DNA from: a bacterium
Lineage (GTDB): Bacteria > Actinomycetota > Acidimicrobiia > Acidimicrobiales > Bin134
DNA: 64,000 bases
Assembly: GCA_026705465.1 (NCBI GenBank)
Contig: JAPPAP010000040.1
Location: forward strand, 62,001-126,000
Direction of reading: 5' to 3'
Part shown: positions 4,844 to 52,402 of the stretch, one piece after another
Layout: the number at the start of each line of letters is the position of its first letter
How positions within the stretch are numbered: the stretch's first letter is position 1
Translations under genes and position numbers: made by a program
Notes under the pieces: generated by a model
Seen by the model: only the letters and a program-made list of their open reading frames with translations
What the model was told of the DNA's origin: nothing
Database searches by the model: none

Positions 4844-6193
4844 ATGGTCGACATCGCCACAACCGACGAGGCCGAAATTCTGGGCACCGCCGTCACTGCC
4901 TCGGGCCTCGCCGCCGATGCCCCGGTGAAGATCCCCGTCCAGCGCTACCTTTCCTCCGAATTCGCCGAACTGGAGTACGAGCGCATGTGGCCCAAGGTGT
5001 GGCACGTGGCCTGCACAGTCGACCACATCGCCAACCCCGGCGACTGGTTCGAGCATCGCCTCGGCAAGTACTCGATCATTCTGGTTCGAGGAGAAGACGG
5101 CGTGCTCCGGGGCTTCCAGAACGTCTGCCGCCACCGGGGCAACTCCATCTGCCAGGGCTCGGGCACCGGCATCACCGAGCTGCGCTGCCCCTACCACCGC
5201 TGGGCCTGGGACCTCACCGGCCGACTCCGCGAGATCCCCTCCCGCCGGGGCTTCGGCCCCATCAGCAACGACGACCTCCCCTTGGTCCCGGTACAGGTGG
5301 ACACCTGGGCCCGCCTGGTGTTCGTGAACCTCGACCTCGAGGCCGAGCCGCTGGCCGACTGGCTGGAGGGCATCCCCGACGACATCGCCTGGGCCAACCT
5401 CGACGAGTTCCGGGGCACCTACTCCACCGCCACTCCGGTGAACTGCAACTGGAAGGTGGTCAACGAGGGCTTCTCCGAGACCTACCACGTGCAGGGGCTG
5501 CACCGAGAGATGCTGGCCAGTATCAACGACGTCAACTCCCCCCAGCGCATCTGGGACCGCCACGGCGTGTCCTACCAGCCCTACGGCGTGCCCAGCCCCC
5601 GCCTGGGCCGCAACGTCGACGATCAGACGGTGTGGGAGTCGTTCGTGGTCACCCAGGGCGGCCGCATGGGGCCGGAGTACGGCGAGCCCGGCAGTCCTGT
5701 CCCCGAGGTGCCCGACGGCCAGACCCTCCAAGACGTGATCGCCCAGAAGATCAGAGACCACCAGGCCACCGTGGGCGTCGACCTGTCGGGCTACGACACC
5801 GCCCAGATCACCCACCTCAGCCAATACAACCTCTTTCCCAACACCACTGTGCTGATCAGCGCCGACATCTTCACCGTGTTGACGGCCCGGCCCGGCCCCA
5901 ACCCCGATGAGGGCGAGTTGGCCACCATCCACCTCAGCAGAATGCCATCGGCCGACGCCCCGGCCTCCTCGCCGGTGCATGTCACGGTGCCCATGGACCA
6001 GGCCGACTTCGGGTTCGTGCTCAACCAGGACTTCAGCGTCATCCGCACCATGCAGAAGGGCCTCCACCAGCCCGGCTTCACCCACGTGTGGCTCTCGGGC
6101 GAGGAGTGCCGCATCATCAACATGCACCGCCAGCTTGAGCGCTACCTGGGCCTCGAGCCCGGCGGCTGGGTGCCCGCTGACCAGGCCCGGTGA
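4844..6193 (+). CDS. Rieske (2Fe-2S) ring-hydroxylating oxygenase alpha subunit
   Basis: Second Rieske oxygenase in this run, 449 residues, longer and clearly distinct from the one at 2332. Rieske ligands are C95 and H97 in CRHRGN, and C115 and H118 in CPYHRW. The catalytic iron motif NEGFSETYHVQGLH supplies H215 and H220, and the acidic third ligand is probably in NQDFSVIRTMQKGL. Length and layout resemble terminal oxygenases acting on aromatic or alicyclic acids. Neither a beta subunit nor a reductase lies nearby, so it is probably an alpha-only oxygenase. The stop overlaps the next gene's GTG by 4 bases (GTGA). Substrate not determinable. Confidence 0.85.
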   Translation: MVDIATTDEAEILGTAVTASGLAADAPVKIPVQRYLSSEFAELEYERMWPKVWHVACTVDHIANPGDWFEHRLGKYSIILVRGEDGVLRGFQNVCRHRGNSICQGSGTGITELRCPYHRWAWDLTGRLREIPSRRGFGPISNDDLPLVPVQVDTWARLVFVNLDLEAEPLADWLEGIPDDIAWANLDEFRGTYSTATPVNCNWKVVNEGFSETYHVQGLHREMLASINDVNSPQRIWDRHGVSYQPYGVPSPRLGRNVDDQTVWESFVVTQGGRMGPEYGEPGSPVPEVPDGQTLQDVIAQKIRDHQATVGVDLSGYDTAQITHLSQYNLFPNTTVLISADIFTVLTARPGPNPDEGELATIHLSRMPSADAPASSPVHVTVPMDQADFGFVLNQDFSVIRTMQKGLHQPGFTHVWLSGEECRIINMHRQLERYLGLEPGGWVPADQAR

Positions 6194-7272
6194 GCCTGCC
6201 CGAACATCCCGAGGCCATCACCCCCGACTGGCTCACCGAGAACCTGGCCGAGCGTTATCCCGGCACGGTGGTCACCGCCGTGGAGGTGCTGGCCATCCAC
6301 GCCGGCACCAACGCTAACGCCCGCCTCGGCCTCATCTACCGGGGCGACACCGACTTGCCCGCCACCATGTTCGCCAAGCTCCCGCCGCTCGACCCCGACC
6401 GCCGAGCCCAGATCAACCAAACCGGCATGGGCCGTCGAGAGGCGCTGTTCTACCAGCGCCTGGCCCACCGCGTGCCCATGCAAACGCTCACCCCTTATGT
6501 GGCCGCCTTCGACCCCGACTCCGGTGCGTTCGTGCTGCTGCTGGAAGACCTGGACAACTCAGCCAAGTCCCTGCCCGACTACAGCACAGGGGTTCCGGTG
6601 GCCTACGCCGCTGAGGCCATGGACCACTTCGCCGAGCTCCACGCCCGCTACGAGGATCCCGAACGCCGGTCCGCCGAGGCCGACTGGGTGCCGCTGGCCA
6701 ACAAGGGCAGCGACTACGGCGCCCGCCTGCTGCGCTATGGGCTCGACAACCATCGCGACAAGCTCACCGACGCCTTCGCCGAGATCGCCGAGCTCTACAT
6801 CGGCCACACCACCGAGCTCCACCAGGCATGGGCCGCAGGCCCCATCGGCGGCCCCGCCACCGTGCTCCAGGGCGACGGCCACATCGGCAACCTGTTCGTG
6901 ACCGAGGCCGGCGGGCCGGGCTTTCTGGACTGGGGCCTCATCAACGTGGGCGCCCCTCTGCGCGACGTGAGCTACTTCCTCAACATGTCCATGGCTCCTG
7001 AAGACCGCCTCGCCCACGACAAAACCCTCATCCAGCGCTACCTCGACGCCCGCATCCAGCACGGCGCCCAGTCCATCGCCTTCGACGAGGCCTGGCTGGC
7101 CCACCGCATCCACGCCGCCTACACCGTCCCCGCCAGCTGCCAGGTGGTCACCTTCCCCGAAGACGCCTCCCCCGGTCGCCAGGCCTTCGCCGCTGCTTTC
7201 CTGGCCCGCTCCGAAGCTGCGCTGGCCGACCTCAACCCCCGCCCCGCCCTCCGCGACGCCGTGGGCCTCTAA
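6190..7272 (+). CDS. APH/ecdysteroid-kinase-like phosphotransferase
   Basis: Aminoglycoside-phosphotransferase-fold small-molecule kinase, 360 residues. The catalytic loop is QGDGHIGNLF (about 236-245), a variant of HxDxxxxN with Q in place of the first H, and the metal-binding DxG-like element is FLDWGLINVG. The N-terminal TEVLAIHAGTNANARLGLIY-type segment corresponds to the nucleotide-binding lobe. The GTG start overlaps the preceding TGA by 4 bases, so it is translationally coupled to the Rieske gene. Relatives include CHK/EcKinase proteins and the kinase halves of ACAD10/11, which phosphorylate hydroxyls on lipids or hydroxyacyl-CoAs. Antibiotic resistance is unlikely in this context. Confidence 0.75.
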   Translation: MSLPEHPEAITPDWLTENLAERYPGTVVTAVEVLAIHAGTNANARLGLIYRGDTDLPATMFAKLPPLDPDRRAQINQTGMGRREALFYQRLAHRVPMQTLTPYVAAFDPDSGAFVLLLEDLDNSAKSLPDYSTGVPVAYAAEAMDHFAELHARYEDPERRSAEADWVPLANKGSDYGARLLRYGLDNHRDKLTDAFAEIAELYIGHTTELHQAWAAGPIGGPATVLQGDGHIGNLFVTEAGGPGFLDWGLINVGAPLRDVSYFLNMSMAPEDRLAHDKTLIQRYLDARIQHGAQSIAFDEAWLAHRIHAAYTVPASCQVVTFPEDASPGRQAFAAAFLARSEAALADLNPRPALRDAVGL

Positions 7273-49146: not shown

Positions 49147-50190
49147 CTACTCCGTCTCGGGCTTGCGGGCCAAAAAGCAGTACAGCGGCGTGAAGATCCC
49201 GGTCTTGCCGCCGGCCACATAGGCCTTGGCCGTCTCATCGAGCAGCTCCACAACATCGGCCGAAGCCTTCGGGATGATCCTCAGCCCCTGGGCCAGTTTC
49301 GATGCCCCGTGCATCACCTTTCGGCTCAGCGGAATCCGGTGCAAGTCGCTGCCCCGTGTGCCTTTCCCGGTCTCCATGGGCATATACCACGGTGTCGACA
49401 ATTCCTCGTCCACCACGCCTCGGTCCCGCCCCTCGATGATCTGGAATCCCGCCTTTTCGAGCGCACGATCCACCTCGCTCGTCGTGGCGATGTCCTTGAG
49501 TGCGATGCCGTGCCTCAGATCCCGCTTCATGGCCTGGTGCTCATCGTTGTGGGGGTCGAACTTGTCGGTCATGCACATTTCCTGGCCCCAAAACAGGGCG
49601 CCGGGCTTCAACACGCGGTAGATCTCGACGAACGCGCCGGCCTTGTCTGGGGCATGACACGTGGATTCGATGGCGTAGGCCCGGTCGAACGTGTTGTCGG
49701 CCACCGCGCCCATGTCCATAAAGCTGCACGCGAGGTAATCCACCATGTGGTCGATCCCCGCCTTGGCGTTCAACGCCTTCGTCCTCTCCAGCTGCACTTC
49801 GCTGTTGTTGACTCCCGTCACCCGCACACCGGCTTCAGCTACCACCCGGCGCATCGGTCCTCCGATGCCGCAGCCCACGTCCACCACGTTCATGCCCTCG
49901 CGCAGATCCAGCTTGTCGATCATCAGCCGCTGATGCCGGATCTTGGAGTCCTCCAGGGTCTCTCGGGGCGACAGGGGAGCGAAGTGCAGGGATTCGCCCC
50001 AACCGAACACCATGAACTCGCTGCAAAGGTTGTAGTACTCCTGAACGGTTTCGGCGTGGTTGTAGGCGCTGGTGTCGGTGTTCTCGGCCTGCGCCCGGTC
50101 AGTCCATCCTTCGAAGTGCTGCACCCGACGGGCCACGTTCGATCCGCGGTACGCAGCCTTCAGCCTGGTGGGCAGTTTGTGGAGTTGCAT
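49147..50190 (-). CDS. Sterol C-24 methyltransferase (ERG6/SMT)-like protein
   Basis: 347-residue SAM methyltransferase whose motif order matches eukaryotic sterol 24-C-methyltransferase along the whole chain. FGWGESLHFAP (62-72) is the sterol-binding region I, VVDVGCGIGGPMR (102-114) the SAM site, YAIESTCHAPDKAG (172-185) the family signature, EIYRVLKPG (189-197), and WYMPMET (268-274). The C-terminal GGKTGIFTPLYCFLARKPE matches the Sterol_MT_C domain end. It is the last gene of a minus-strand operon (hydrolase, DUF1761, SMT). No squalene or oxidosqualene cyclase, or CYP51 is present here, so the acceptor may be an acquired sterol. Other possibility: methylation of a related isoprenoid. Start ATG 50190, ribosome-binding site GAAGGC. 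Confidence 0.88.
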   Translation of the reverse strand: MQLHKLPTRLKAAYRGSNVARRVQHFEGWTDRAQAENTDTSAYNHAETVQEYYNLCSEFMVFGWGESLHFAPLSPRETLEDSKIRHQRLMIDKLDLREGMNVVDVGCGIGGPMRRVVAEAGVRVTGVNNSEVQLERTKALNAKAGIDHMVDYLACSFMDMGAVADNTFDRAYAIESTCHAPDKAGAFVEIYRVLKPGALFWGQEMCMTDKFDPHNDEHQAMKRDLRHGIALKDIATTSEVDRALEKAGFQIIEGRDRGVVDEELSTPWYMPMETGKGTRGSDLHRIPLSRKVMHGASKLAQGLRIIPKASADVVELLDETAKAYVAGGKTGIFTPLYCFLARKPETE

Positions 50191-50233: not shown

Positions 50234-50659
50234 TCAATTCCATACCGCCAGGACAAGCCCAATCACGGCGTACGAGATCAACGGGTAACCGAAGTTGATC
50301 GCCAACAGTTTCACGCTGCGCCCTTCGAACGCATAGTTCACGCCGTGCGATGTCAACACGAACCCCACCGCGGCCAGCACCCCGAGCCCGAGCCCTTCGC
50401 CTGCGTTGGTGGCTTCCATGCCCTGCACCAACAGCGCCAAGCCCAGGGTGAACACGATGGCCAGCACAATGGCAATCACATACGGGTACCACTGCCGAGG
50501 CGTCCCCTTCATGGCCTCGATGTCCTCGGTGGTCATCCCGGTCTCGGCCATCCACGGCTTGGCCAAGGTGCCGTACCAGAAGGCGCCGAGCAGTTGGTTG
50601 AACACCACGGCGACCAAGATCGCCAGGTAGTTCAGATCGCCGAAATCGATGTTGTCCAT
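50234..50659 (-). CDS. DUF1761 family membrane protein
   Basis: 141-residue four-helix membrane protein. NYLAILVAVVFNQLLGAFWYGTLAKPWM (about 9-36, split) is the typical DUF1761 N-terminus, followed by a loop and hydrophobic segments at about 58-78, 88-107 and 122-140. Family function unknown. It lies 14 bases after the hydrolase and 43 bases before the methyltransferase, probably in one operon. The ATG has CACAAT 6 bases upstream. Confidence 0.8.
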   Translation of the reverse strand: MDNIDFGDLNYLAILVAVVFNQLLGAFWYGTLAKPWMAETGMTTEDIEAMKGTPRQWYPYVIAIVLAIVFTLGLALLVQGMEATNAGEGLGLGVLAAVGFVLTSHGVNYAFEGRSVKLLAINFGYPLISYAVIGLVLAVWN

Positions 50660-50673
50660 GCCCCCATTGTGCC

Positions 50674-51510
50674 TCAGCCGTCGAACAGAGCGGCGGCGAT
50701 GGAGGCGGCGATGCGGGGCGGGTCCTGGAAGGGGCCGAAGTGGGTCAGATCGTCGAAGCGCACCAGCGTGGCGTTGGGCAGTTGCTCGGCGATGAGCGGC
50801 GCCGCCATGGCCGGCGGGTCGGCGTCGGTGCCCACTACCACCGTCACCGCGGCAGCCACTTCACCCAGCCGGTCGAACGCCGATCGGTCCGGGTTCTCGA
50901 AGATGGTGGCCTCCACCTCGCGGGGGCACTTCATGGTCACTGTGCCGTCGCCCCGCTCTCGAAAGCCGTGGTCCACGTAGGCCCGCAGCACCTCGGGGTC
51001 CAACAGGCTGAACGGGGGCCGGGACCCGTACCGGTCATATGCCGCTTGGCGCGACTCGAAGATCTCCTTGCGCATTCGGGCGATGTCGCCCAGCGCCTTG
51101 ACCCCGTCGCGGGGCAGGCTGAACGCCGGAATGGTCACCGGCTCGAACATCCAGGCCCGATCAAAGGTCCCCGGCCGGGCTATCTCGGCCTTCAGGATCG
51201 ACGCCCCGCCCAGCGAGTGACCCGCCGCCAGCCGAGGCGTGGGATCGATAGCGTCCACGGCGGCCAGCACATCGTCGGCCATTCCGTCCCAGTGGTAGTC
51301 CTCATCCGGCCCCGACACGCTGTCGCCGTGGCCCCGGAAATCCAGCGCCCAGCAGCGGGCCACCGACGTCAGCTCGCGGGCCACCGACTGCCACATCTGA
51401 CCGCAGAACCCGTTGGCGTGGGTCAACAGCACCGACGGCCCTTCGCCGCCCAAGTCGTGCAACGCCACCCGAGCCCCCCTGGTCGAGGCAATCAGCCGGG
51501 GCTCGCTCAT
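50674..51510 (-). CDS. Alpha/beta hydrolase
   Basis: 278-residue alpha/beta hydrolase. LTHANGFCGQMW forms the oxyanion-hole region, AGHSLGG (96-102) holds the nucleophile S99, and LTHFGPFQDP near the C-terminus the catalytic histidine. Start ATG 51510 is chosen; the open frame runs upstream with composition unlike a hydrolase and toward the divergent hydratase gene. A lipase/esterase or C-C bond hydrolase are both possible. First gene of the operon with DUF1761 and the SMT-like gene. Confidence 0.85.
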   Translation of the reverse strand: MSEPRLIASTRGARVALHDLGGEGPSVLLTHANGFCGQMWQSVARELTSVARCWALDFRGHGDSVSGPDEDYHWDGMADDVLAAVDAIDPTPRLAAGHSLGGASILKAEIARPGTFDRAWMFEPVTIPAFSLPRDGVKALGDIARMRKEIFESRQAAYDRYGSRPPFSLLDPEVLRAYVDHGFRERGDGTVTMKCPREVEATIFENPDRSAFDRLGEVAAAVTVVVGTDADPPAMAAPLIAEQLPNATLVRFDDLTHFGPFQDPPRIAASIAAALFDG

Positions 51511-51574
51511 GGCCGAAAAACCGGGGCCGCTGCGGTGAGAGCAAACATCGGCCCGCAGGTTACGGTTGGCGGCC

Positions 51575-52402
51575 ATGAGCGACAACATCGTCCTGATCGA
51601 CAACCCCCGCCCCCATGTCCGGCGCGTCACCATGAACCGTCCCGAGAAGCGCAACAGCCTCATCCACCCGCTGCGGGGGGCTGTTCTCGACGCGCTGCAC
51701 GAGGCCGACCAAGACGACGACGTCAAGGTCAGCATCGTCTGCGGCGCTGGCCCTTCGTTCTCCGCTGGCTACGACCTCAGCGGGGGCAACGAGGGCTATG
51801 AGCTGCCCTTCTACACCCCCGGCGGCGAGGGCCAGTGGCCCCGCCACGTGACCGAGGGCTGGATGAGCATCTGGGACCTGGCCAAGCCGGTCATCGCCCA
51901 GGTCCACGGCTACTGCCTGGCCGGGGGCAGCGAGCTGGCCACCGGCTGCGATCTGGTCTACATGGCCGAGGACGCCAAGATGGGCTATCCCGCCGTTCGC
52001 TTCGGCGTGCCCGACATGCACTTCCACGCCTGGTTCATGGGCATGCGCAAGGCCATGGAGATGATGCTCACCGGCGACTACGTGAGCGGTCTGGAAGCCG
52101 TAGAGCGGGGCTGGGCCAACGCCGCCTACCCCGAGGACGAGTTGGAAGACGCCGTGCTCGACATCGCCGAGCGCATTGCCCAAGTGCCCGCCGAACTGCT
52201 CCAGATGAACAAGCGGGTGGTCCACCGCCAGATGGAGCACATGGGCATGCGGGCCGGAATTCGGGCCGGCACCGAGCTGTGCGCCCTGGGCACCCACACC
52301 CAGGCCATGGCCGACTTCGTGGGCTCCATCAAGAAAAAGGGCCTCACCACCACCCTGTCCGAGCGCGACTCCAAGTTCGGCGACTACCGCACCAGCCACT
52401 GA
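51575..52402 (+). CDS. Enoyl-CoA hydratase/isomerase family protein
   Basis: 275-residue crotonase-fold enzyme. SFSAGYDLSGG (about 67-77) and GYCLAGGSELATGCDLVYMAED (split, about 114-134) form the oxyanion hole. A TTG three codons upstream is possible but ATG 51575 is preferred; TACGGT (51561-51566) is 8 bases upstream. Divergent from the alpha/beta hydrolase (64-base gap). The insertion PFYTPGGEGQWPRHVTEGW precedes the second motif. Precise reaction unknown. Downstream of it a Liv-type importer begins. Confidence 0.85.
   Translation: MSDNIVLIDNPRPHVRRVTMNRPEKRNSLIHPLRGAVLDALHEADQDDDVKVSIVCGAGPSFSAGYDLSGGNEGYELPFYTPGGEGQWPRHVTEGWMSIWDLAKPVIAQVHGYCLAGGSELATGCDLVYMAEDAKMGYPAVRFGVPDMHFHAWFMGMRKAMEMMLTGDYVSGLEAVERGWANAAYPEDELEDAVLDIAERIAQVPAELLQMNKRVVHRQMEHMGMRAGIRAGTELCALGTHTQAMADFVGSIKKKGLTTTLSERDSKFGDYRTSH

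Follow-up and report, generated by a model that had tools for sequence, protein, structure and literature searches.

The window analysed here, a 64,000-nucleotide stretch of an Acidimicrobiia genome, encodes a full-length homologue of the sterol methyltransferases (SMT/ERG6) whose side-chain pocket is altered in the same way across a whole subfamily of bacterial relatives. We consider it probable that this enzyme alkylates the side chain of a scavenged sterol with altered specificity, and that it does so within a horizontally exchanged tailoring module. That a sponge symbiont should carry a bacterial SMT is in itself already known: Brown et al. 2023 counted 7966 metagenomic SMT homologues (thresholds of 30% identity and E 1e-50) and assayed 24 SMTs of bacterial or metagenomic origin, ten of which came from sponge symbionts; 20 of the 24 alkylated the sterols offered and three gave 24-isopropyl sterols (PMC10070321). 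With so many homologues and 20 active enzymes on record, the initial annotation's remark that few bacterial SMTs have been described is out of date. Our literature search found no description of the variant subfamily and its invariant pocket substitutions, of its module or of its tight co-occurrence with partner genes, and to our knowledge no member has been assayed.

The gene lies on the minus strand (49147..50190; 347 aa from ATG), and the motifs that the initial annotation had read in this ORF are all present at the residues it gave: FGWGESLHF at residues 62-70, an intact SAM-binding motif (residues 102-112, VVDVGCGIGGP; 49855..49887, minus strand), Region III with its catalytic Glu kept (residues 172-181, YAIESTCHAP; 49648..49677, minus strand), WYMPMET at residues 268-274 and the C-terminus IFTPLYCFLARKPE. 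Its reading as an SMT homologue with a Sterol_MT_C end also stands. In Pfam the protein matches a full-length methyltransferase domain, Methyltransf_11, at 64 bits, and Sterol_MT_C (residues 288-345, 49156..49329, minus strand) at 60 bits against a cut-off of 21.7. An NCBIfam search returned sub-threshold matches only. By BLASTP it is 39% identical to Arabidopsis SMT1 over 340 aa, 34% to yeast Erg6p over 335 aa (E = 2e-67) and 33% to Arabidopsis SMT2, all three aligning end to end and without oddities. The sequence thus confirms a full-length SMT/ERG6 homologue, which we assign to a variant (D) subfamily. Compared with its nearest orthologue, at 87% identity, the gene shows dN of 0.06-0.07 and dS of 0.32-0.51, and is under purifying selection (dN/dS about 0.12-0.22). 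Together with 80 orthologues at 63-87% identity, this ratio shows that the ORF is not a chance one.

These orthologues are the best 80 of 127 relatives that were confirmed when 84,980 species genomes were scanned. The carrier MAGs bear the names Chloroflexota/SAR202/Dehalococcoidia, Dadabacteria, Acidimicrobiia, Gemmatimonadota, Acidobacteriota, Alpha- and Gammaproteobacteria and Truepera, and between them cover at least six phyla; judging from the names of the MAG series, most carriers are apparently sponge symbionts. Among them the nearest, the 87% orthologue, belongs to an Acidimicrobiia MAG, a kinship that bears out the actinobacterial host proposed earlier. A maximum-likelihood tree with 75 rows gathers the variant subfamily into one clade (100/100) on a long stem within the SMT set, the family to which the initial annotation had assigned the protein. 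That set is split at 99/98 from three outgroup rows (RebM, MitM and another methyltransferase). The program flagged long branches, and given these the exact attachment point of the clade is tentative. Phyla interleave within the variant clade, with 12 changes for 6 phyla over 35 labelled rows, and include well-supported pairs of Gammaproteobacteria and Gemmatimonadota, a pattern which suggests that the gene has probably moved horizontally. Seven Acidimicrobiia loci (L044, L045, L047, L051, L053, L072 and L073) share a second conserved context for the variant SMT, with OsmC-like and flavin monooxygenase-like proteins downstream and, in most, cytochrome oxidase genes upstream. The variant SMT of genome G091, and the LkcE-like flavoenzymes of G144 and G159 (a partner described below), match open frames with one in-frame TAG, which is probably a terminal stop or an assembly effect.

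The subfamily departs from ERG6 in Region I (residues 60-70, MVFGWGESLHF; 49981..50013, minus strand), the sterol side-chain and cation site, which steers the SMT reaction (PMC5711494). In ERG6 numbering the window protein carries Y81M, E82V and F89L here, and Met at codon 205 (49576..49578, minus strand) in place of Trp225. Across the aligned subfamily, Tyr81 is replaced by Met, Phe89 by Leu and Trp225 by Met in all 92 members, and Glu82 by Val in 83 of the 92. The Tyr81, Phe89 and Trp225 sites are aromatic in 25/25 canonical-type bacterial SMTs and in the three eukaryotic references. The SAM-site residues and the ERG6 residues H90, D125, E195, E209 and E224 are unchanged in 92/92. The initial annotation had overlooked these changes at catalytic side-chain positions. 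Its interpretation is partly supported, and its proposal of C-24 methylation is one of the weaker parts: the SAM site and acidic residues are kept, but the side-chain aromatics are replaced throughout the subfamily, and C-24 is an unproven site of methylation. Classic C-24 activity should not be assumed, because Tyr81, Phe89 and Trp225 are replaced in every member. On the strength of the intact SAM and acidic residues, the replaced side-chain residues and the Botryococcus homologues that act on linear triterpenes, the variant enzyme is predicted to be active, and its substrate or regiochemistry may differ from that of a textbook SMT.

It is possible, although we do not favour it, that the protein is an ordinary sterol C-24 methyltransferase that, in spite of its substitutions, methylates desmosterol-like delta-24 sterols in the standard way. 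Full-length identity of 34-39% to Erg6p and plant SMT1 and the intact SAM site would fit such an enzyme; the protein passes the homologue thresholds of Brown et al., and 20 of the 24 enzymes they tested alkylated the sterols offered (PMC10070321). Against this, three sites that are aromatic in all other aligned SMTs are aliphatic in 92/92, in part within the very region that steers the reaction, and many carriers have a separate canonical SMT. The host genome is among these: a second SMT (C29:48545-49561), also missed by the initial annotation, is 49% identical to plant SMT1 and carries the FYEYGWG motif in its canonical form. A canonical-type SMT is likewise present in 23 of 50 other variant-SMT carriers. 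In four genomes of the same genus (G008, G010, G012 and G014; loci L100, L101, L102 and L105), canonical-type SMTs occur as tandem pairs with about 66% and 85% identity to this host paralogue, and no cyclase homologue was found in the stretches read around them.

The host's sterol supply bears on what the variant enzyme might act upon. The host genome (3.11 Mb, 95.7% complete) has no match to squalene epoxidase (PF08491) and no oxidosqualene cyclase, its sole SHC/OSC-family protein being a cyclase with the DDTAE hopene-cyclase motif; it thus lacks both hallmarks of a de novo sterol producer. This fits the earlier suggestion of an acquired sterol, and the host's variant SMT probably acts on one. 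In the 50 other carriers, epoxidase matches were strong in 5, marginal in 3 and absent in 42. Since no convincing epoxidase was found in 45 of the 50, most carriers apparently cannot make sterols and would depend on an outside supply. The five strong matches lie in open frames of 1116-1191 aa, a size that fits epoxidase-cyclase fusions, which Brown et al. 2023 mention (PMC10070321).

The initial annotation had found the P450s and CoA-transferases of the window compatible with sterol handling. This argument we set aside, as only two close relatives have the flanking CoA-transferase and the nearest P450 next to the gene, and the window neighbours are weak evidence for sterol handling. Immediately upstream on the minus strand are a DUF1761 membrane protein gene (50234..50659; 43 nt from the methyltransferase) and, after a 14 nt gap, an alpha/beta hydrolase gene (50674..51735), both of which could be co-transcribed with the methyltransferase. 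Of the two, the hydrolase alone persists beside an orthologue, that of the 87% relative; DUF1761 is not conserved beside orthologues and is absent even there. Elsewhere in the window, 6190-7272 (plus strand) encodes an Ecdysteroid-kinase-like family protein (EcKL, 44.9 bits, cut-off 22).

The meaningful partners are instead on another contig of the host, C40. At about 96.4-100.9 kb of this contig a Rieske oxygenase (62% identity), a flavoenzyme (80%) and a P450 with an N-terminal GPP34 (GOLPH3-like) domain (61%) are adjacent. Homologues of these recur around the variant SMT itself: in the 80 orthologue loci we count the GPP34-P450 in 49, mostly convergent, a KshA-type Rieske oxygenase in 42, an LkcE-like flavoenzyme in 29, and in 9 an ERG4/ERG24 protein that matches Delta14-sterol reductase best in the PDB. 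In 38 loci an MMPL transporter with similarity to Patched/SSD proteins precedes the SMT gene immediately, in the same orientation. KshA is the first PDB match of the Rieske protein and no sterol desaturase is among its PDB matches; its class may be that of KshA, DAF-36/Neverland or SdmA. The GPP34-P450 (L093:9855-11882, on host contig C40; L002:11083-13275) keeps the fusion in 47 long members, with a heme motif YGLGTHrCLG and an I-helix of about ASvYLGDafsF instead of the usual AGxxT; a literature search on this fusion in sponges found no relevant paper among those listed. The flavoenzyme (LkcE/fatty-acid-isomerase-like; L093:8433-9821, on host contig C40) is 71-80% identical across phyla and is more conserved across them than the methyltransferase.

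Co-occurrence in whole genomes agrees with these neighbourhoods. Of 119 Dehalococcoidia genomes that were drawn evenly, 7 have the variant SMT and 9 have any SMT. The flavoenzyme is found in 7/7 variant-SMT carriers vs 1/112 others (Fisher p = 1e-10, phylogeny ignored), and the lone other genome with it carries a canonical-type SMT. The GPP34-P450 is found in 9/9 SMT carriers vs 1/110 others (Fisher p = 1e-12, phylogeny again ignored), including the two genomes whose SMTs are canonical only. Across 22 genomes of the host's genus, 11 have both the flavoenzyme and an SMT of any kind, 7 have neither and 4 have one alone (p = 0.007). The link to the variant subfamily specifically is not significant there (p = 0.33); in this genus the flavoenzyme goes with SMTs in general, not with the variant subfamily in particular.

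These partners also weigh on a serious rival, which we nonetheless judge unlikely: that the enzyme methylates the terminal isoprene of a linear triterpenoid or other isoprenoid, such as squalene, a carotenoid or a quinone tail. The three TMTs of Botryococcus braunii (TMT-1/2/3) are SMT homologues with variant sterol-binding domains that methylate squalene or botryococcene (PMC3533583), and the host, which has a hopene cyclase and no sterol pathway, makes squalene for hopanoids. By curated models no partner gene is sterol-specific in itself, which counts against the favoured reading. Speaking for a sterol are the KshA-type Rieske, the Patched/SSD-like transporter and, in nine loci, the ERG4/ERG24 sterol reductase, as well as the company that the GPP34-P450 keeps with canonical SMTs in two Dehalococcoidia genomes. 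Our appraisals of the favoured reading, of ordinary C-24 methylation and of the linear substrate are not mutually exclusive, as modest shifts in C-24 chemistry fall within the first. That the protein is a non-SMT small-molecule or lipid methyltransferase (CFA-like, RebM-like or tocopherol-like) mislabelled through its SAM motifs can hardly be right: RebM, MitM and AtmM are its best PDB matches in sequence and fold (AlphaFold model, mean pLDDT 83), but these are uninformative because no Erg6-type SMT is in the PDB match list, and both the Sterol_MT_C domain and the 99/98 grouping with SMTs, in a tree with no gamma-TMT rows, speak against it.

Under the favoured reading, alkylation of a scavenged sterol with altered specificity, the substrate would most likely be a sterol obtained from the sponge host or from neighbours that make sterols. 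The RND/MMPL protein may move this sterol, the Rieske and P450 enzymes may oxidise its nucleus or side chain, and the flavoenzyme may shift or introduce a double bond. The SAM-dependent C-methyltransferase would then attack a side-chain alkene, as ordinary SMTs do. With Tyr81, Phe89 and Trp225 lost, the cation would be held differently, and because of this the methylation probably departs, in position, number or chain length, from the conversion of desmosterol to 24-methylenecholesterol. Taken together, these genes would form a sterol-tailoring module that sponge symbionts exchange horizontally. A bolder version of this reading, in which the subfamily performs a sterol side-chain alkylation that has no known enzyme (for example at C-26, of the aplysterol or 26-methylstigmastane type) inside a mobile module for remodelling host sterols, seems to us improbable.

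Known systems resemble this one in part. Like the SMTs of Brown et al. 2023, the variant enzyme is bacterial, apparently sponge-associated and full length with a C-terminal domain, and some of those enzymes act with no host sterol pathway, their Chlamydiae SMT coming from a genome that lacks one (PMC10070321). The assays on those SMTs used desmosterol and 24-methylenecholesterol, and the accompanying gene clusters were of the erg/sdm kind; the main text of that paper does not mention the partner cassette of the variant SMT. With eukaryotic SMT1/ERG6 and SMT2 the variant shares its fold, SAM motif, order of Regions I-IV, Sterol_MT_C domain and acidic residues; it differs in having Met, Leu and Met at Tyr81, Phe89 and Trp225, and mostly Val at Glu82. 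The Botryococcus TMTs can be likened to it by description, as SMT homologues with a variant sterol-binding domain, but they are eukaryotic and act on squalene or botryococcene. Kelly et al. 2022 described clustered steroid genes and enriched ERG6 homologues among the symbionts of Ircinia (PMC9531527); there, too, sponge symbionts of many phyla and horizontal transfer are involved. The Ircinia clusters are, however, ERG24-CYP51-LSS clusters for de novo synthesis, whereas the variant-SMT cassette has no cyclase and comprises the MMPL, GPP34-P450, KshA-like Rieske and flavoenzyme genes.

Overall, the oxidation and transport genes that travel with the variant SMT look like a sterol-tailoring kit, and an unstudied GPP34-P450 fusion is tied to sterol methylation through co-occurrence. 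With its wide distribution, its changed side-chain site and its defined partners, the SMT subfamily is a concrete and cheap target for assays. Which enzymes make the unusual side chains of sponge sterols, such as 24-isopropyl and 26-methyl ones, matters for the oldest animal biomarkers that have been proposed, and we know of no enzyme for C-26 methylation. If the variant subfamily did perform such an unprecedented alkylation, part of the 'sponge' sterane signal would have been written by bacteria that do not synthesize sterols.
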